The notes beneath the pieces are model-generated. The model had not been told where the DNA came from. It did not search any database and worked only from the letters and a program-made list of their open reading frames with translations. Positions 14,730 to 64,000 of a stretch of DNA of 64,000 bases are shown piece by piece. The number at the start of each line of letters is the position of its first letter. The stretch's first letter is position 1. The stretch covers positions 124,001 to 188,000 of the forward strand of contig VUYT01000017.1 in the NCBI GenBank assembly GCA_008802785.1, read 5' to 3'. A program made the position numbers and the translations under genes. This stretch comes from Symmetrospora coprosmae (taxonomy: Eukaryota; Basidiomycota; Cystobasidiomycetes; Symmetrosporaceae).

Positions 14730-16180
14730 TCACTTCTTCTTGCCGCCCTTCTTCTTCTTTCCCTTCTTGTTGGGCGTCTTTCGCGGACTCGCCGTTGCGC
14801 TCCTGACGCCGCCCTGGGAGGATGCGCCTCCTACGCTTGCGCCATCATCCTCGCTCTCATCGCCACTCTCGCCGCCCACGGAGCTCATGGTCGAGGCCTG
14901 CCTCTGCATGCCGAGCTGTGCCAAGGTGGCTGGACCATTGCTGCTGCCCGGGCCGCTCGCAGGTGCGCTGCCGTTCGTTGCGGGCTTTGGCGGTGTGCCC
15001 GGCCCGCTCGTAGCCGCTGCGCCTGCCTTCGCCGGTGATTGCGCGGCGCTCGCCCCTCCCTGCTGCTGCTGCTGAGCCGCCTGCGCAGCGAGCTGCGCCT
15101 GATGCTGTCGAATCGCGTTCTGCAGCTGTGCGGCAGCCTGCATCTGCGCGGGCGACATATTTCCGCCAGGTCCCGGCTGGCCAGGCTGACCAGGCAACAT
15201 TGGCTGGCCATTCGGACCGGCCATCACTCGCTGTGGCTGCGGCGTGCCTGGCTTCGAGTTTGGCCCTGCGCCGAGAACATTCGCGTTCGTGGGGACTGAG
15301 GCTGGGAGGACGCGCTTCTTCGGGTTGGCGGCGGAGATGCCGAGGATGGGCGGCGGGGTGATGAGCGGTGCTGGTCCGTTGTACTTTGCGGCTGTGGGCA
15401 CACGAGGGCAAGGGCGAACAGATGCGCCTGTCAGGGACGCGGACCACGCCCTGGCCTGTGCGGCTCGGCTCGGAAAGCAGGACCACCCACCCAGCTTGCG
15501 CTTCTGCTCCTCAATCTCTTCAAAGAACTTGCGGTTCTTCTCGTGCTGGATCATATCGCCTGCATGCGCAAAGATGATCTGTCCCCATCCCGGCCTGAAT
15601 GTGTTTGCCTCCTGGACGACCTCGTAGATCTCCGAGTCGAGCTCCTTCTCTGCCTCGAGGATGTGGTTCCACGTATCGTCGCCGATCTGGCCCTTCGTGA
15701 GGAGGTTCTGCAGGGCGGCCTTGTTCTCCCTGATGTCCATGATGCGCTGCACGTCCGTCATTGCCCGCCGGATCAGGGCGGCAATCAGCACTGGCCGCGC
15801 GGGCGTCGGCTCCATCGACAGCAGCGAGCAGTAGAGGTCGCGCGTGTGATGAGTTCCAAACCATGGCTCTCGTATGGCGTTGGCTGGTGTGAGCGGCATC
15901 CAACCACTGTCAGCGCTGCTTCCCCTTTGATGGCGGCACTCGACACGTCGTCGTCCTCAGCCTCAGCCCTGCCTCGCCTGCGAACTCACTCGCTTGCCTC
16001 CGGCGGTAGACCTTCGAGAAGATGGAGAGGGATCCGACAAGGAAGGCGACGTCTGTGCATGAGATGGCATGATGCAGTCAGCTCAGCTTCTCGCCCTGTG
16101 CAGGTCTTTGCGCATTCGCCTGGACGCGTGCAGTGCGTCTGCGCCCACGCACACGCCAAAGGCACGAGCACCGAGACCAT
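14730..16180 (-). CDS. SEC66: SEC66/SEC71-type ER translocon subunit
   Basis: Four exons (16180-16153, 16052-15990, 15883-15491, 15391-14730) give 381 residues. A signal-anchor starts at the N-terminus (MVSVLVPLAYVAFLVGSLSI) followed by YRRRQ. The Sec66 core follows with REPWFGTHHTRDLYCSLL, ALIRRAMTDVQRIMDIR, NLLTKGQIGDDTWNHI, EKELDSEIYEVVQEANTF and RPGWGQIIFAHAGDMIQHE. The family acts with Sec62/63/72 in post-translational import into the ER. The C-terminal 210 residues are unusual: Pro/Gly/Gln/Ala-rich low complexity ending in an oligo-lysine KKGKKKKGGKKK tail. The intron at 15392-15490 is 99 nt without a stop in frame. It is convergent with the preceding gene. Confidence 0.92.
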
Positions 16181-18889: not shown

Positions 18890-19471
18890 GGGCGCACATA
18901 GGGAAGGTGAGTCAGCATGCGGTCTCCACGTTGCCGGAATGTTGGCTTGTCCTGGCTCAGAAGCGATACTGACAGCCTCAAGACGGGTATACAGTAATCC
19001 CATGCAGAAACGTCTGAGGAAGGCATCACACGCATACGTGGACCACCAGACTATTGTTGTACCATCTAGACGATGCAGCTGGCTGGCGTCCTGCGGGCCT
19101 GTCGGGCGCCGTCGACCTGCTGCACTTCGCTGCTGCAAGGCAAGGAGCCATCTGCAGAGGGAGAAAGGTCTATTCAGTACGCAAACGCAGCAGAATACGA
19201 CTGTCGCGCCTACTGTGTCTGTGCGAATCGCGATGCTGCCGTCACTATGTACGCACCAGGTCTGTATAGGACCCCTATTTTCGTGGCGTAGCCTCTGTAA
19301 AATCTCGCCGGCAAGGCTTGCACTTGGACTTCGTCGACATCATCGCGCATAGGGAGCCATAGCAGCAGCAGCAGCAGCAGCATTGGGGACGCAAACAGCG
19401 TACTATACGGCGTCACAGAGCTCCCTGGCCTGACCTGATCAAACGGCAGCCAGGCGCGCTCACCGACGGCC
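18890..19471. other. Intergenic upstream of TSR1, with CAG repeat
   Basis: About 580 bp. A (CAG)7-type run lies at about 19362-19382. Small open frames on both strands have no features. It probably holds the Mic12-like 3' end and the TSR1 promoter. Confidence 0.45.
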
Positions 19472-22434
19472 ATGTCGCAGGGCCATTCGCACCGTCCGTC
19501 ACTCAAGCAGTCGAACAAATCCTTCAAGTCGCGTCACTCCAGCAAAGGCAGCCTGCGCGATGCAGCAAAAGGGCGTGTGGAAGGGAACGGGACGGCTTCG
19601 GGGAACGCGCACGGCAAAAAGACGCGCTCGGGCGCCTCCATCTCTGCGTCCCAGAGCAAGGCCAACAGGCGCAACAATGCAAAGCAGATCCAGCTCGCAA
19701 AGCGCCAGGCCGTCATAGACAAGGGCAAGCTCACAAAGGGTGCAGAAGGAAGAGCGCCCCGTGTCGTGGCCGTCATTCAGCTGTGCGAGGACTCCGACGG
19801 GACCGCCATCATCAACGAGCTTCTCGGCGCCGCTGCAGACCTCGTCAACACCGAGACAGTCAGCGAAACGGCGCACGGCATCAAGCAGGTCGAGTGTGTG
19901 CTTTCAATCCATGCGCTTCGCCTGCTGTTATGTCTGCTGACGTCGAGACTTGCCCGCTCCGCATCAGCCTCCTCAACCCATGCGCGACGCTGCAGTTCCT
20001 CACGCCAGCCCACGGCGACCTCGTGGCCAACCTCGACGCAGTCGCCACGGCGGACTTTGTCGTCCTCTCGATCTCGGGCACCGTCGAAGTCGGCCCATGG
20101 GGCGAGACTTGTCTGCGCTCCATCGCAAGCCTCGGCATCGGCGAGGGCGCCGTCCGCGGCATTGTGTCTGCACTCCCAGAGAACGCGACGGCAGTGACGC
20201 AGGTGCGGAAGTCGCTCCACTCGTTCCTCCGCCACTTCTTCCCGTCTCTCGAGCGCCTTCATGCCCCGTCCGTGGGCGCATCAGAGGCAATGAATCTCGT
20301 CCGCAGCTTGGGAGATCGACTGCCGCGCGGCGTCATCTGGAGAGAGACGCGGGCGAGGGTGCTCGCGGAGGAGATCGCATGGTTGCCAGAGGTGTCAAGC
20401 TCAGAGCAACAAGAGAGCGGAGACGAAGTCAAGGGGACACTGGCCGTGACGGGCGTCATCCGTGGCAGCACCCTCAGCGCGAATCGCTTGGTCCATATCC
20501 AAGGGCTAGGCGACTTTCAAGTGGCCAAGGTGAGATGTCCAGGTGACCTCGCCTGCTGTGCACAAGTGGGAGCCGCTGACCACGCCACGCCCTACTTGTG
20601 CTTTGTCGCCCGTCGGTCGGCCTCCATCGGCCCTCCTGCTCCTTTGCAGATCGTCGATGCAACATTGCAGACAGCGAAGGCCGGTCACAAGAAGAAAGCG
20701 CACAACGGAATGGATGACGCACCTGGCCTCGGCGACATCCTCTCTGAGCCGACGCCGTCCGAAGCCGACGACCTCGTCTCGACAAATGCACCTTCAGAAG
20801 GTGACTTGATGAACGAGCAGACGTGGCCGACAGAGGACGAGATTGCATCTGCGCCTGCCAATGCCGTCCACCGGACGTTCGGCGCTGCGGCAACGGGCGA
20901 CAGCGCACTCATGCCCCCGCCCGCTCTCCCCGGGACCACCCCACGCCGTCTAAAGAAGGTGCCAAAGGGCACGTCAGTGTACCAAGCTGCGTGGATTCCG
21001 GACGAGTCGGACGATGATGACGACGGCGCGTACGGCGATTACGACGACGATGATGGCGAGGGCATGCGTGAGGACGGAGAGAATGGCGAGCGTGAGCGCC
21101 TCAAAGGCGGCGGCCTCCTGCAGTCGGACGAAGAGTACGAGTACATCGACATGGACGCAACGGACTCGCAGGCGCGCGGAGGACCCGCCACCTCTACGGG
21201 CTTTACCGGACTGGCCCACTCGGACCTGCCAATGGACGTCGAAAACGCCCAGTACCAGTCCTACCTCGCCGACCGCCGCGCGACGGCCGCCGAGCGCGAC
21301 CGGGAGAACAAGGATGACCTGGAATTTCCGGACGAGGTTGACACGCCGCTCGAGACGCCTGCAAGGGAGCGCTTTGCCCGCTACAGAGGCCTCAAGAGCT
21401 TCAGGACGAGCAGGTGGGATCCGTACGAGAATCTGCCAAGGGACTACGCGCGATGCTTCATGTTCAGCGACTACAAATCCATGAGCAGGAAGCTCACACA
21501 GCGGGCTGCCGAGGAGGGTATCGAGGTATGTGCGGTCTCGCCCCGGGCAGGCAGAAAACATGGGTCAGACGGGCGCTAACAGCAGTTCTACTCGATCCAA
21601 TTGTAGGCGGGCGCACGGGTGACAGTGTACATCAAGGACGTCCCCGCTTCCGCGGCGACTCTCCTTCAGCGCACATCGCAGCCACTCGTCGTTTTTGGGC
21701 TCCTCAAGCACGAGCACAAATTCTCTGTGGCCAACTTCACCTGCGTGCGGAATACCGAGTACAGTGCCGATATCAAGGCCAAGGACTCGCTCATCATTCA
21801 GCTTGGCTGCCGTCGATTCAACATCAACCCACTGTGGTCGCAGCACACGCAGGGCAACGGCGGGAAAGGCGCCAACAATGTGCACAAGTTCGAGCGCTTC
21901 CTGCGGCACGGCCCCACCGCATCCGTGGGGACGGCATACCTGCCCATCACGTTTGGCAACAACGTGCCCGCCATCGTCTTTCAGCAGACAAGCGACGGCC
22001 TCGAGCTCGTGGGGAGCGGCTCGTTGCTTGCCGTCGATCCAACGCGCATCATTGCCAAGCGCATCATCCTCACGGGGCACCCATACAAGGTGCACAAGAA
22101 GACGGCGACAATCCGCTACATGTTCTTCAACCAACCTGACGTCGAGTACTATAAGCCCGTCGAGCTGCGCACAAAGAAGGGCCGCGTCGGCCACATCAAG
22201 GAGAGCCTCGGTACCCATGGCTACTTCAAGGCTGGGTTTGATGGGCCCATTGACCAGATGGACACCATCTGCCTGAACCTCTACAAACGCTGCTACCCTA
22301 AATGGGGCACCTTCTGGAAGGGGGAGCAGGCCGCAGGGGATGCCGCACCAGGCGCGTCTATTGCGCAGACTGAGGGCGAGCCTCTCGGGATGGCCGCGCA
22401 CTCCGTTGCGGCGGTTGATGCAGAGATGGTCTGA
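19472..22434 (+). CDS. TSR1: TSR1, 40S ribosome biogenesis factor
   Basis: Four exons (19472-19893, 19968-20529, 20650-21525, 21607-22434) give 895 residues. The N-terminus is basic with HRPSLKQSNKSFKSRHSS, typical of Tsr1. The GTPase-like core carries SLRDAAKGRV and PRVVAVIQLCEDSDG but not a catalytic P-loop, as in the family. The central acidic linker is long (DESDDDDDGAYGDYDDDDGE). The BMS1/TSR1 C-terminal domain is complete, with LVVFGLLKHEHKFSV, LGCRRFNINPLWSQHTQG, HKFERFLRHGPTASVGTAYL, ILTGHPYKVHKKTATIRYMF and GYFKAGFDGPIDQMDTICLN. It acts in late cytoplasmic pre-40S maturation. The second intron (20530-20649) is 120 nt and stop-free, so an isoform with 40 extra residues is formally possible. 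Confidence 0.96.
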
Positions 22435-34539: not shown

Positions 34540-36142
34540 TCATCCCCGGACAACAGCCGCCCGAATCTGCAGGCACAGGTGCAGGATCTGCAGCTCTTCG
34601 TCCGCACCGTCATTCAGCGACTTGTCGGCCTCGCCGAGTGCGAGTGCAATGCCCGACTTTGCTCGGGACGGGAGGAGCGGGTCCAGGATCAGGAGGTCGT
34701 GAAGCTGCAAGTCGTCTCCGTTCAACGTCAGCCCTGCGCGCACTCTGATGGATGTAACGGGACGCACCTGGATGAGGATCTGCGAGGCCGAGTACCCCTC
34801 CCTGACAATCTTCTCGACCTGGCTGCGCACACGCGCGAACCCGCCCTTGTCCGACTTTGCCCCACCGGATTTGCTCTTGAGCCTGACGTCCTTCATCTCT
34901 GTGTCTCCACCGCCGCCGTCTCCGTTAGAACCCTGAGGGGTGGCGGCCTCGACGCCGAGGGCGTCTACGAGCTCGGCGAGGCGCGCGTCGGGGATGACGC
35001 CGCCAATCTCCTGGACGCTGTAAGGGGTGATGGGGTCGTCTGCCGTGTTGTGGAGGCGGCTCGCGGACTGGAGGTACGTGATGGCGCGGCGGAGGTCGCC
35101 GTCCGACACGCGGATGAGCGCGTCGAGGCTCTCCGGGTTGTACGCGATCTGCTCCTGCGTACAGATGTGCTCGAGGCGGGCGCGTGTCGAGGATGTGTCG
35201 AGCGCTTTGAAGCGGAACTTGCTGCAGCGGCTCGTAATGGGCTCAATTATGCGCGTAACGTAGTTGCAGATGAGGCAGAAGCGGGTGATGCGGCTGTACG
35301 TCTCCATGATTCTGCGCAGCGCCGACTGGGCGTCCTGCGTCATGCTGTCGGCCTCGTCGAGGATGATGATCTTGTACGGGGGCGAGGGGAATGCCGGGTC
35401 CGGCTGGCTGACGCTGATTTTGGCAAATGTCTTTATCTTTTCGCGGACGACGCTGATGCCTCGCTCGTCGGACGCGTTCAGCTCGAGCACGCGCGTCTTC
35501 ATGAGCTCTGGCCCGAAGAGCTGCCTGCAGAGCGCGAGGATGGTTGACGTCTTCCCTGTCCCTGGTGGGCCGTAGAAGAGCATGTGCGGGAGCTGGTGAT
35601 TGTGTAGCATGGGAGCAGAGCGCAGGCCAGAGAGTGTCAGCGAGCCGAGCGAGGTTACGGGACGGACGGACCAGAGCGAGAAGGGGAGCGGGCTTTCCGC
35701 CCACATTTGCGCTCCCGAGCGTCTTTCGCAGCACTGCGACCGTGTGATCCTGGGCCGAGACGTCGTCAATGTTCTTTGGTCGGTATTTCTCGACCCAGGG
35801 CTGTCGGGCCGGGTCTGTGATGGTTGGCCGTCCGACGCGTAGGTAGGTTCAGCGGGCGGCTGTACCGAACGAAGCAAGCGGGGTTTTGGGATGCGGAAGA
35901 GGAAGAGGAAGGTTGCGGGACCCACCAATGAGCGCCCTGACCTGCTTTGCCTTGCCCTTTCCCTTTGCTGCTGCGCTTGCGGTCCCTGACCCTGACCCTG
36001 AGCCTGACCCTGTTCCTGCTGCCGTCGTGAGAGCTGCCTGCTGCGCTGCCTCTCCCTCGCTCGCTGCTGCAGCGGCTCTCGCCTGCTTTGACTGTACGGG
36101 TTTGACATTGTTGCCGGGCTTTCTGTTTAGCCAGGCCTCCAT
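34540..36142 (-). CDS. RFC2: Replication factor C small subunit, RFC2-type (human RFC4-like)
   Basis: Four exons (36142-35926, 35814-35705, 35592-34768, 34704-34540) give 438 residues. RFC boxes are all present: PWVEKYRPKNIDDVSAQDH (box II), HMLFYGPPGTGKTSTILALC (Walker A), LELNASDERGISVVREKI, IIILDEADSMTQDAQSALRR (Walker B), TRFCLICNYVTRIIEPITSR (sensor, arginine-finger SRC) and GDLRRAITYLQS. The box II and C-terminal LPSRAKSGIALALGEADKSL match the Rfc2/RFC4 class better than Rfc3, Rfc4 or Rfc5. An Ala/Gly/Ser-rich 70-residue N-terminal extension and a short Gly-rich insert near residue 325 are extra. It loads PCNA within the RFC pentamer. Intron 34705-34767 is 63 nt and stop-free. Confidence 0.94.
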
Positions 36143-41934: not shown

Positions 41935-44838
41935 CTAGTCCTCCTTCTTCTCCGCAAAGCCAACACTCTTGGTGTCCAGGTTGAACGACGTGTAGACATC
42001 CTTGAGGAAGCTGTCGCCGATGATCCAGGCGTTGATGCCCGTGTCCATGCCGACGACAGAGCCGACGCATCGCCCAGAGCCCGCGCTCGTCGAGCCAAGG
42101 TTGAAATTGTCCTTGCTCATGGACCACTCCTTGCCGCCAAAGCTGAAGCTGACCTCTGGCGTGTCGGCACAAGGGAACGTGTAGTACCCGCCGCCGATGG
42201 CCTCGGAGCTGTCGATCTTGTCCCAGAACGCCTCGGCCTGCTTGGGCGGTGCGACAACGACCGTGGTTCCCGTGTCGATGATGCCGTAGAATTCCGACGA
42301 GGCCGACTTGCCATCGACCTGCGCGTCGCCCGTGAGCACCCAGTACGACTCGGACACGACAGGGTGCCACTCGATGTTGCCCTGGTACTTTGCCGGGTTG
42401 GCGCCCCCGAGATACAGCTCAGAGCCCGAGTGCGAGTCGAGGTTGAAGCTGAACTGCGCCGACGAGACCTTGTTCTGCTTCATGAGCGTCTGGAAGAACG
42501 GCGGGACGTTCATCTGCGAGATGGACTGGAAGCCCATGCCCATGATGCCGTCCATCGGGTCGTCGGCGAACGACTGCGAGAGCGTGCTTGCCACCCCGAT
42601 CGTCTGGTCCGTCGCCGTCATGCCCGCAACCGTGACCGTGTCCGTGTACACGGCGCCCTTGGTTGCAGAGCCGTCCCCGTACTGCACGTTGAGCTTGTTG
42701 CTGTCCTGCAGATCCGCCGTCGAGGACTTGGATGGGTCGTACTTGCTGTGCTTGGCGCATGCATTCGACTTGCAGTCGACAGAGGGGATCCAGGTATCCG
42801 AGGATCCCGTATCAAAGTCGAGAGTGAAGGCCTGTGCGGGTGTGCCGATGCTGACTGGGCCGGCCCAGACTGCAGTGCGAAGGGAGGTCAGCTACTTCTC
42901 ATGTGTGCACATCATGCTAGCAGCAAAGACTCACGCAGATCACTGTTGAAGCTCTTGAGTGCCACTCCGCTGCTCTTCTTGCCCTGCGAGGCGTTCTGCT
43001 TGGCTGCCTGGAAGGCGGTTGCCTTTGGGTTGCCGACTGAGAACTCCGAAGCGCCAGCCATGAAGTCGTCCTCGATGGTCGGGAGCTCCTCTTCCCTGTC
43101 GCTGTCCGTAGTCTCCTCGTCCGCGCCTCCGACCACACCAGAAGCGGCGGCCTGTGCGCCTTCAGCCTCGGCAATGACTTGCTCGATCTCGGCTCGTCGA
43201 GCGAGACGGTGCTCCCGCTCAGCCAGCTCCTCCTCGCTGTACAGCTTGCTGCCGAAAAGAGCCTCGCCCGTCTGGCGCTGGTATGCCACGGCTCCTTTCT
43301 CGTACTTGACATTGACGTGTGCGAGGTGGGCCTGTTGTGATGTGAGAATTGCAAGATCAGATTTAGGTCCGGTGCATTTCCGGGCAGCGCGGCGAATAAC
43401 CTACGTGAGCTGCATCCCAGTCTACGACACCCTCCTTAGCAAGTGGGTTGGCAGATCGCTTGAAGAGCGGGATAGCCGTGGCTCCACCTTGCGCAGGTTC
43501 ATCGCTTGTTGATTCCTGGATCTGCTCCGGTTCCTCGACGAGCACCTGGGGACCGACATCCTCCGGTGCGACGTCGTCTGCGCTCTGGTGGTAGGCCGAG
43601 ACCTGGTCCTCCGGGGCGATGAAAGCTTTCCTGTTGGGAATGGACCAAGGGTTGGCAAGCTTTGCCTGGAAGGCGTTGGCCGTAGCCTGACCACGAGCAG
43701 GGGGTGCGCCGGCGCCGACGCTGATGGCGGAGCGCCGAGGCGGCGGGCCGTTCTCGGGGAAAGAAGCTTCAGGGAAGACGAATGCCTTCCTGTTCATCAG
43801 TGTCGAGGGATGCGCCAGCTTGATTTCAGGCTCGTCGAGTGTGTTGACAAAGGCGCCCTCTTCTTGCTCGTGCTCGCTGGACTCGACCGTCGCGCTCACG
43901 ACCACCTCGGGGAAGACGTAAGCCTTGCGGTTGGGAATCGTGGAAGGATGAGCGAGCTTGATTCGTGTATCGGGTTTGGCTGCACCGGAAGGGGCCGCCT
44001 CTGGGAAGATGTAGGCCTTCCTGTTGGGCACGTCGATGGGAGAGACTTTGACCTCGACCTTGGCCTGACTGTTCGCTGGCGCCTTGGCCTGAACTGCCGG
44101 AGCGGCGGCGGGGACATATGCCTTCCTGTTTCGGATCGACTCCGGAGCAGGCAGGTTGGAGTTGGCACTGCTGATCTTGACCTCCGCGGCGAGAACGGGA
44201 AACTCGGGCTCCTCCTCGTCGAAGGGCGTGCTCGGCGGGAGGTACGCCTTGCGGTTGGGGATGCTCTCTACTGCCGCCAGGGACGAGCGTCGCATGGGGA
44301 CATTGTCAGGCCCAGCGAATGAGCGTCGACGAGCGGCGAGAGAAGCATCGGGCACACCGAGCGAGCTGCGGCGCTGCTGCTGCTGCTGGATGTGCGCAGA
44401 CTCCTCGCTTGTGAGGGAGCGGCGGCGTTCATTGCTTGCCACAGGGGACGCCGAGCTCCGCCTGGCAACCTCTGGCACGGCGTCCTCGGACACTGCGCCA
44501 GCAGCGACGGAGCGCCGGCGTGCTTTGTTGATGTCAGAAGGGGTGGCGAGGGAGGACCGCCTCTCCTCAGGCGGAGCGAGGGACGCGCGCCTCGCGGCAG
44601 GAGGAGGGGGGCCGTAGCCAAGCCCAGCGAAGAGGGCCGGGTCGGCGATTGAGCTCCGTCGGGACGATGGAGAGGCCGTACCCTCGTCGACCGAGACGAA
44701 CGAGCCACGGCGCGAGCCTGGGTTGGAGGCAACAATGTTGTCGTCGACGACGGAGCTGCGTCGCAGAGGAGCAGCCTGGGTGGCGCCGAAGAGCGCGGCG
44801 GCGGTGAAGGCCGTCTGGATGAGAGTCGGGGTGTGCAT
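41935..44838 (-). CDS. Secreted pepsin-type aspartic protease with giant repeat prodomain
   Basis: Three exons (44838-43405, 43331-42935, 42869-41935) give 921 residues. A signal peptide (about residues 1-22) is followed by about 440 residues of two repeat families: twelve RRxS motifs (first Arg at 26, 43, 60, 83, 93, 107, 126, 138, 156, 170, 183, 368) and six NRKA[Y/F] modules (Asn at 195, 237, 272, 303, 349, 402). A KR at 460-461 precedes VVDWDAAHAHLAHVNVKYEK, the usual propeptide of fungal aspartic proteases. The protease domain starts near 611 with SIGTPAQAFTLDFDTGSSDT (catalytic Asp near 630) and has the flap QYGDGSATKG and the second FYGIIDTGTT (Asp near 809), so it looks active. An exon boundary falls exactly between WDAAH and AHLAHV, consistent with joining of the repeat part to a standard protease. 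Confidence 0.92.
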
Positions 44839-62150: not shown

Positions 62151-62389
62151 GGCTGTTCCGAGCACCCGCCATTGCTCCCTGCCAGCAATAGGGAATGGGG
62201 TCGTTTGTGGTAATGTGCTGAATATAGCTCGACATGGCACAGCGTCGAGGCTGTAATGACTGTGTCCTTGCACCTCTGCCTCTGCTGAAACGTCTCTCGG
62301 CGTGGAGCCGTGAGCTCCAGCTCGTCAACCTCTGCCGGACTCGACGTTCTCATAATCGCACGACTTGGCTTTGCATCAGCCTGCGCACA

Positions 62390-64000
62390 ATGGCGAGCAT
62401 ACCTGACTACTCGATCCAGATCGCGGTCGACCGAGGCGGTGCGTGAAGATGGAGCGGTCCGCTATAGTATTCGTCACCGGCTCTCGCTGACATCAATCCG
62501 CGCACATGTTCCAGGCACCTTCACCGACGTCTACGCTTCCTGGCCCAAGCCCGGCAGCGATGCCTCTTCTTCCGATCGCGAGGAGGCTGTCCTGAAGCTG
62601 CTGTCGCAGGACCCGTCAAGCTACAAGGATGCCCCGCTCGAAGGAGTGCGGCGCGTTCTCGAGCGTGTGACGGGACAGAAGATCCCGCGCGAAGAGCGCT
62701 TCACGACCGAGAAGATAGCGAGCATCCGCCTCTCCACGACGGTCGCGACGAACGCTCTGCTCGAGCGCAAGGGCGCCAAGATGGCCCTCCTCACCACGAA
62801 AGGGTTCAAAGACCTCCTCGTCATTGGCAACCAGTCGCGCCCGGACATCTTTGCGCTCGATATTCAAAAACCCGAGGTGCTCTACGAGCGTGTCATAGAA
62901 GTGGACGAGCGCGTAACGCTTGTTGGCTACACGAGCGACCCACGGCGGGCTGAGCGAGAAGTACAGTTCGACGAGAACGGGAGAATGACGCGCTATTACG
63001 ACGGAGCAAGCACTGGAGATGCATCCGACATCGTACGCGGTCTGTCGGGCGAAGCGGTGCAGATCATGCGCAAGCCCGATGCGGGGCAGATTGAGGCGGA
63101 TCTCCAGCGCCTGTACGACGATGGCTTCCGCGCACTCGCCGTCGTCTTCATCCACTCGTTCACCTTTCCGGACCACGAAAAGCTCGTCGGTGACATTGCG
63201 CGGAGAGTAGGCTTCACCCATGTGTCGCTCAGCTCGGAGGCCATGCCCGTCATCAAAGCTGTCAGCCGCGGGAACTCGTGCACCGCCGATGCCTACCTCA
63301 CGCCCGTGCTGCAGCAGTACATCGACGGTTTCTTCGCCGGCTTTGATCAGAGCCTACGAGAAGGGGTAGACCAGCTTTCTGAGGGCAAGGCAGGCGCTGA
63401 GGGAAGTGCCAACGTGACCCGCGTCGAATTCATGCGATCCGACGGCGGTCTGACGGATGTCAAGAGCTTCAGTGGACTACACTCCATTCTCTCTGGTCCC
63501 GCGGGCGGTGTCGTCGGATTCGCAAGGACAAGCTGGGATGATAAGCGCAAGCAGCCGGTCATTGGACTCGACATGGGAGGTCAGCGATTGCCAGCTGTTT
63601 CATGCCGAGATTCTGCAGCTAAGCGCACTCGGGTGGACAGGCACGAGTACCGATGTATCACGCTATGCTGGCGAGTACGAGATCGTCTTCGAGACCACTA
63701 CAGCTGGCATATCGATACAGTCACCGCAGCTGGACATCAGTGAGTATTGTCAGCGAACCCAAGTCTTCCGGACAGGTCTGGTGCTGATACACATTGTCCT
63801 GGTCGTGCGGAGACACCGTGGCGGCCGGGGGCGGAAGCAGGCTGTTCTTCCGCAACGGCCTCTTCGTGACTGGACCGGAAAGCGCCGGCGCACATCCTGG
63901 ACCGGCAGCCTATCGAAAGGGCGGCCCTCTGGCCGTCACTGATGCAAATCTCCTTCTCGGGCGCCTTTTGCCGGACTACTTTCCGAAAATATTCGGCAAG
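62390..64000 (+). CDS. OXP1: 5-oxoprolinase (ATP-hydrolysing), N-terminal part, cut by window end
   Basis: Exons 62390-62438, 62515-63579, 63641-63739 and 63813 to the window edge; 467 residues are visible of an enzyme normally about 1250-1300. The HydA half shows [20 protein letters not shown] (nucleotide-binding loop), [94 protein letters not shown] and [20 protein letters not shown], then [18 protein letters not shown]. The enzyme opens 5-oxoproline to glutamate in the gamma-glutamyl (glutathione) cycle. Splices are all phase-1. The HydB half lies outside the window. Confidence 0.96.

Follow-up and report, generated by a model that had tools for sequence, protein, structure and literature searches.

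In the basidiomycetous fungus Symmetrospora coprosmae, a gene for a predicted aspartic protease carries two arrays of short motifs, one built on RRxS plus a hydrophobic residue, the other on NRKA[YF], inserted between the presumed signal peptide and an otherwise ordinary propeptide. The enzyme itself is an ordinary A1 protease; what is new is the enlarged pro-part with its two arrays, in which an insert of ~430 residues brings the whole to ~590 residues. We tentatively propose that the product is a secreted A1 zymogen with a long, removable pro-extension in which the motifs would serve for binding, perhaps to the protease of the same chain. What the sequence itself shows is the reading frame, a splice junction supported by likeness to sister genes, the two arrays and the absence of any such array from nine sister proregions; the function proposed for the insert is inferred. 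We analysed a stretch of 64,000 nt of contig VUYT01000017.1, referred to here as the window, and all coordinates are positions within it.

Gene structure and the predicted fusion to an aspartic protease

Encoded on the minus strand, the gene has three predicted exons that, once joined, give 921 residues with one stop, which is terminal. Exon 1 (43405-44838), the entire stretch flagged by the original prediction, has 478 codons and ends in phase 0. It is followed by intron 1 (43332..43404, minus strand, 73 nt, GTAGGT..CAACAG, phase 0) and by exon 2 (42935..43331, minus strand), which holds the remainder of the propeptide (AHLAHVNVKYEKGAVAYQRQTGE...). Across intron 2 (42870..42934, minus strand, 65 nt, GTGAGT..CTGCAG), the join to exon 3 (41935..42869, minus strand) gives one frame of 921 codons plus a stop. 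Exon 3 encodes the pepsin-type catalytic domain, residues 611-921, with DTG motifs at residues 630 and 809 (D630 and D809); it matches PF00026 with an E-value of 7.7e-85 (285.5 bits against a curated cut-off of 19.9), and the Pfam score and the two DTG motifs together assign the predicted product to the A1 (pepsin) family. The closest solved structure by sequence is 9uf9 (E 1.2e-93, with the alignment covering residues 7-314 in the frame of exon 3). The opposite strand holds long open frames of 525 codons (41935-43512, plus strand) and 269 codons (43513-44322, plus strand), which probably arise as a side effect of codon usage rich in GC.

Residues 1-22 (MHTPTLIQTAFTAAALFGATQA; 44773..44838, minus strand) form the presumed signal peptide, assigned from hydropathy and by eye, with a plausible cleavage at TQA/APL likewise judged by eye. 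With a hydropathy of 1.38 over 15 residues, it is the most hydrophobic stretch within residues 1-610; the signal peptides of four sister proteases are more hydrophobic (1.91-2.06). After the presumed cleavage the chain would open with APLRRSS (44752-44772, minus strand), close to IPLFKRSA, with which the ordinary propeptide starts, and a copy of that start site may have given rise to the array.

The first 23 residues of the ordinary propeptide (IPLFKRSANPLAKEGVVDWDAAH, residues 456-478; 43405..43473, minus strand) close exon 1 in frame, so that intron 1 interrupts the propeptide. Its start, IPLFKR, aligns with the starts IPLVKR, IPLEKR and YQISKR of three sister proteases, and the propeptide aligns at 29-40% identity with three of the nine sister proregions read; no Pfam propeptide model matched exon 2. 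Among the intron 1 joins that we tried (6 donors x 5 acceptors), three kept the frame, all with one common acceptor, and of these GTAGGT is both the most donor-like and the sole donor retaining the full propeptide block. In C60, C76 and C55, three sister proteases encoded in the same genome, that block runs uninterrupted in a single frame, which supports the junction between exons 1 and 2.

The fusion of exon 1 to the protease, which depends on a single predicted intron, is thus very likely real. That exon 1 and the protease are instead two separate genes, joined by an error of the gene model, appears extremely unlikely: the propeptide would then be split, its first 23 residues standing in frame at the end of exon 1 although the block is continuous in three sisters, and the protease without exon 1 would have no signal peptide, the next hydrophobic stretch within residues 1-610 reaching only 1.01 and having no Met at its start. 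On the other side stand the dependence on that one intron and a codon-position GC signal that is weaker in the RR part of exon 1 (0.68/0.63/0.75) than in exon 3 (0.51/0.47/0.88). The original prediction had placed the repeats between a signal peptide and an ordinary propeptide, in frame with a protease, and both points held, one signal-peptide-like start preceding the two DTG motifs.

The neighbours of the gene in the window include, by Pfam, housekeeping genes for the translocon subunit Sec66 (14730-15956, minus strand), a Tsr1-like ribosome biogenesis protein (19363-21579, plus strand) and an AAA ATPase with a replication factor C domain (34540-36126, minus strand). Farther along, Pfam identifies the N-terminal and A domains of a hydantoinase/oxoprolinase (62289-63743, plus strand; E 8.1e-50 and 1.4e-17). 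A scan upstream of the gene for promoters and terminators of bacterial type, with models that hardly suit a eukaryote, found nothing.

Two motif arrays in the pro-part

Both arrays observed originally are confirmed, with corrections to the counts, and they lie far above chance. The RRxS-hydrophobic array (44278..44763, minus strand, residues 26-187), which we analysed for motif positions, codons, shuffles and column conservation, comprises 11 motifs starting at residues 26-183, with successive spacings of 17, 17, 23, 10, 14, 19, 12, 18, 14 and 13 residues. The residue after RRxS is hydrophobic in 10 of the 11 and Ala in the other. Twelve RRxS had been claimed; the spacing of 10-23 residues stands for the 11 found, and the twelfth is an isolated RRSAI (43723..43737, minus strand, residues 368-372), a Ser-to-Ala form that sits among the NRKA units. 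When residues were shuffled over the 456 positions that follow the signal peptide, RRxS occurred on average 0.34 times (maximum 4) and NRKA 0.009 times (maximum 1), and none of 20,000 shuffles reached the observed 11 RRxS or 6 NRKA.

In a test of each alignment column of the RR array, only R-R-x-S-hydrophobic is strongly conserved and the spacers are at background; the RRx[SA] anchors were picked by motif, so that the test is circular for columns 0, 1, 3 and 4 and not for the remaining ones. Uncorrected over the 27 columns, the x position (column 2) is Ser in 7/12 (p 0.006), Pro stands three residues past the hydrophobic residue (column 7) in 5/12 (p 0.02, weak), and column 8 gives p 0.047. 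The motif Ser itself is Ser in all 11 RRxS and Thr in none. Across copies, the codons of the two Arg show pS 0.77 and pN 0.07, the low pN arising partly by construction, as the units were selected for sharing the motif; the five codons on each side of the Arg pair diverge freely (pN 0.60 and 0.69). Given the divergence of the Arg codons at synonymous sites, the RRxS copies are not a recent tandem array. The codon of the motif Ser is TCN in 11/11 cases versus 26/42 among the remaining serines of exon 1 (chance ~0.005, or 0.011 with the codon usage of the whole gene as background), a hint that the units descend from a common ancestor.

The second array (43609..44256, minus strand, residues 195-410) consists of six units that begin at residues 195, 237, 272, 303, 349 and 402. 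NRKA[YF] is present in 6/6, followed by V or I in 5/6 and by L once; Pro stands three residues past Y/F in 5/6, Glu after that position in 4/6, and KL or KV lies upstream in 4/6 (VKV, IKL, IKL, AKL). The module [IV]K[LV]..P..xNRKA[YF][VI].PE originally described therefore stands as to its six units, but the formula is loose, only NRKA[YF] holding throughout. All six units contain a [YF]-[VIL] bond, the type favoured by pepsins. Pro occupies the matching place in 5/6 NRKA units and 5/12 units of the RR array, so both arrays may derive from a single ancestral motif, [RN]-R-x-[SA]-hydrophobic-x-x-P.

The NRKA units resemble the pepsinogen prosegment (VKVP...KYFPE). An origin from that prosegment was rejected, as a profile of the six units matched no pepsinogen in the PDB set at E-values up to 10. 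The profile did match ribosomal protein eL24 (E 0.0072) and a polymerase subunit (E 1.7); the eL24 match is an 11-residue stretch containing NRKAYV, and we take it as chance in an unrelated protein. Exon 1 as a whole has no Pfam match at E up to 1, nor do three pieces of it at E up to 10, a weak negative since the true propeptide of exon 2 is likewise unmatched.

The charges of the chain are unevenly distributed. Residues 23-192, with the RR array, have a net charge of +9 and a pI of 11.5, the NRKA part has +1, and a stretch of 42 residues before the ordinary propeptide (residues 414-455; 43474..43599, minus strand) has -10; the protease domain is at -17, with a pI of 4.4. Single-sequence AlphaFold2 models of exons 1 and 3 were both uninformative (mean pLDDT 33 and 41), and since the method fails even for a clear pepsin domain, no conclusion about disorder follows from the low score obtained with exon 1.

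Comparison with sister proteases

A search of the genome gave at least 23 matches, which we grouped into this gene and ten others. We found no second copy of the array when exon 1 was searched against the whole 20-Mb genome (E up to 10, 11 candidates), the matches being the gene itself, its own antisense (E 0.017) and a weak match with three stops on C75 (E 0.06). Nor does a comparable array occur in nine sister proregions, which hold a single RRxS in 1,361 residues altogether. These nine, two of which (C1 and C22) may contain unspliced introns, have 26 dibasic runs (18 KR and 8 RR); the tenth sister gene (C47) was left out of the dibasic-site comparison, its proregion being unreadable in one frame. 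We compared them with the 12 RR runs of exon 1, counted without the KR of IPLFKR and without the RR of exon 2. The pair is RR in 12/12 cases in the array versus 8/26 in the sisters (Fisher p 5e-5), [KR]RxS occurs in 11/12 versus 2/26 (p 7e-7), and an aliphatic residue stands two before the pair in 1/12 versus 9/26. These differences indicate that the array is not just a run of the usual sites of this fungus. Elsewhere in the genome, two adjoining A1-like genes on C43 (L026 and L028) have several KR sites in their proregions, a more usual kexin pattern.

Alternative explanations

The original prediction likened the gene to fungal precursor proteins from which Kex2-type proteases free the repeats. 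In favour of that interpretation are the in-frame fusion, the single signal-peptide-like start and the kexin gene that this genome encodes (its P-domain on C44, with catalytic and membrane segments alongside, by reading open frames), but the likeness to such precursors was not supported: the RR-bounded fragments are not alike, the NRKA units are not bounded by KR or RR, and the dibasic sites of the sisters differ. A multi-peptide precursor fused to a protease, in which kexin, cutting at the RR sites, frees ~ten peptides as the product and the protease is a passenger or does the trimming, accordingly seems unlikely to us. The predicted peptides would have 10-23 residues including the basic tail and would begin with [SAG]S-hydrophobic or S-hydrophobic. 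Cutting the exon 1 region at KR/RR does yield 14 fragments, above the minimum of four for KEX2-processed repeat proteins (KEPs), and ten of them have 10-23 residues and a shared start. The KEP criterion, as set out by Le Marquer and colleagues (PMC6339444), is a secreted protein cut at KR/RR into at least three similar fragments. In our re-implementation of it (not the authors' script), run with two backgrounds, with and without basic tails, the largest group of similar fragments was two, both among the ten short ones and among all 13 fragments that end in KR/RR; the first test omits fragments of 5, 185, 92 and 17 residues, and the second restores all but the last. This leaves no group to which the further KEP threshold, a repeated motif making up at least 15% of the protein, would apply. 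By sum-of-pairs similarity, the ten short fragments reach z 1.79 (matched by 17/500 shuffles), but without the leading xS-hydrophobic they fall to z -0.23 (matched by 303/500), while the NRKA units, used as a control, give z 34.9 and would be left by such cutting inside pieces of 185 and 92 residues. The fragments are thus unlike past their first residues, just as the strong column conservation stops at the hydrophobic residue, and the scarcity of aliphatic residues two before the pair, relative to the sister proregions, also speaks against peptide release. So does, as a weak point, the finding that 0/12 sites carry an acidic residue in either of the first two places past RR, where the residues are mostly small; acidic or small residues are over-represented there in cut Kex2 substrates (PMC2515848). 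Matches to UstYa (DUF3328) numbered 0 in the genome, but the control genomes were silent too, and a Pfam scan that covered 20 of the window's 79 long open frames gave none. Cutting at RR remains likely, since the genome has a kexin gene and RR was cut in a basidiomycete KEP expressed in Pichia (PMC9769878). Kexin cutting would not, however, account for the conserved Ser and hydrophobic residue.

These two positions are what a different register describes. RRxS followed by a hydrophobic residue is the consensus of protein kinase A (PKA), and RRASL, present at residue 83, is the kemptide core; by sequence, the array agrees with a PKA-type site, as the hydrophobic residue follows in all RRxS but the one with Ala. 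The motifs could then be candidate phosphorylation sites of a basophilic, PKA-type kinase that the protein encounters within the secretory lumen or extracellularly, or that acts on a fraction retained in the cytosol, with RRSAI and perhaps NRKA[YF] as non-phosphorylatable versions. PKA had been set aside originally on the ground that the protein is secreted. That objection stands, as the signal-peptide-like start should route the protein to the ER and a basophilic kinase is not known from the secretory lumen of fungi; yet the kinase-type register (R-3, R-2, S0, hydrophobic+1, with spacers at background) best describes the conserved positions. The uniformity of the sites, with Ser throughout, no Thr and Ser in 7/12 at x, is greater than kinase sites require. 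We hold phosphorylation to be decidedly unlikely, since a secreted protein should not meet such a kinase. Drift offers another account, in which duplication of a dibasic start (APLRRSS, similar to IPLFKRS) was followed by drift of the remaining sequence, leaving the motifs as remnants without a present role in a largely unconstrained, disordered insert. The resemblance of the first unit, APLRRSSV, right after the presumed signal cleavage, to the propeptide start IPLFKRSA would agree with this, as would the uniform TCN codon of the motif Ser, which common descent predicts, and the lack of spacer conservation. Against it, the Arg residues are kept while their synonymous sites have diverged, and drift should have erased the motif along with the spacers, whereas the motif count is one that no shuffle reached; we therefore consider drift quite unlikely. 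If the arrays nevertheless prove to be drift, they would caution against reading every secreted dibasic array as a peptide precursor.

A proposed removable pro-extension

We return to the zymogen with a long pro-extension as the best, if tentative, explanation. The pro-part would have been enlarged to ~590 residues by the insert that separates the signal peptide from the ordinary propeptide, and the insert would be removed in secretion, by kexin at IPLFKR and some of the RR sites or later by the protease. While attached, it may keep the enzyme, which is acidic (net -17), in an inactive or partnered state, with contacts made by the basic RRxS array (net +9) and by the substrate-like NRKA[YF]-[VIL] units, and low pH would release it from the enzyme. 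On this proposal, the Ser and the hydrophobic residue conserved in RRxS would be positions for binding, not for processing. The opposite charges and the location fit a binding role inside the zymogen, although charge alone does not explain the fixed Ser and hydrophobic residue. Against the proposal, over the whole of exon 1 the charge is diluted by the neutral NRKA part (+1) and the acidic stretch (-10), and the NRKA profile lacks a pepsinogen match (PDB set, E up to 10).

A more specific version is a self-controlled zymogen, enzyme and multivalent inhibitor in one chain, in which the NRKA[YF]-[VIL] units would be tethered pseudosubstrates and RRxS a switch. By the pepsin rule, a hydrophobic pair occupies S1/S1'; here the pair of each unit would do so, with Lys at P3 as the block, and the RRxS-hydrophobic array would be a tunable second switch, basic at rest and possibly phosphorylated. 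We regard this version as very unlikely. If the extension does act on its enzyme or yields peptides, the gene would be a case of multivalent zymogen control, or of an enzyme doubling as a peptide source. Full-text searches, judged by titles and the beginnings of abstracts and with most subscription papers outside their scope, returned no description of the architecture.

Relation to known systems

Dikaritin RiPP precursors (ustiloxin and phomopsin type) share with this protein repeated units that combine an aromatic residue with Pro, here AYVFPE, which we take to resemble phomopsin cores. The RiPP reading was set aside because UstYa, whose gene would be expected near such a precursor, gave no match, although the controls for this search were silent as well. 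Arrays of substrate sites for PKA and other basophilic kinases share the register R-R-x-S-hydrophobic but differ in that the present protein has a signal-peptide-like start and its phosphorylation is putative. KEPs share a signal-peptide-like start, many dibasic sites and a kexin in the genome; they differ in that here the RR-bounded fragments are dissimilar, the NRKA units are not bounded by KR or RR, and an enzyme lies downstream. We noticed no KEP fused to a protease in the main text of PMC6339444, PMC7329392 and PMC9769878, as far as these were available.

A1 zymogens have, as textbooks describe, short, basic and self-inhibiting propeptides. RmuAP1 of the yeast Rhodotorula mucilaginosa (9uf9), the nearest solved relative by sequence, has the same order of prepeptide, propeptide and catalytic domain. 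Its propeptide comprises 59 residues (PMC12730222); the protein described here differs in having ~590 residues and two motif arrays at the same place, a pro-part about ten times as long.
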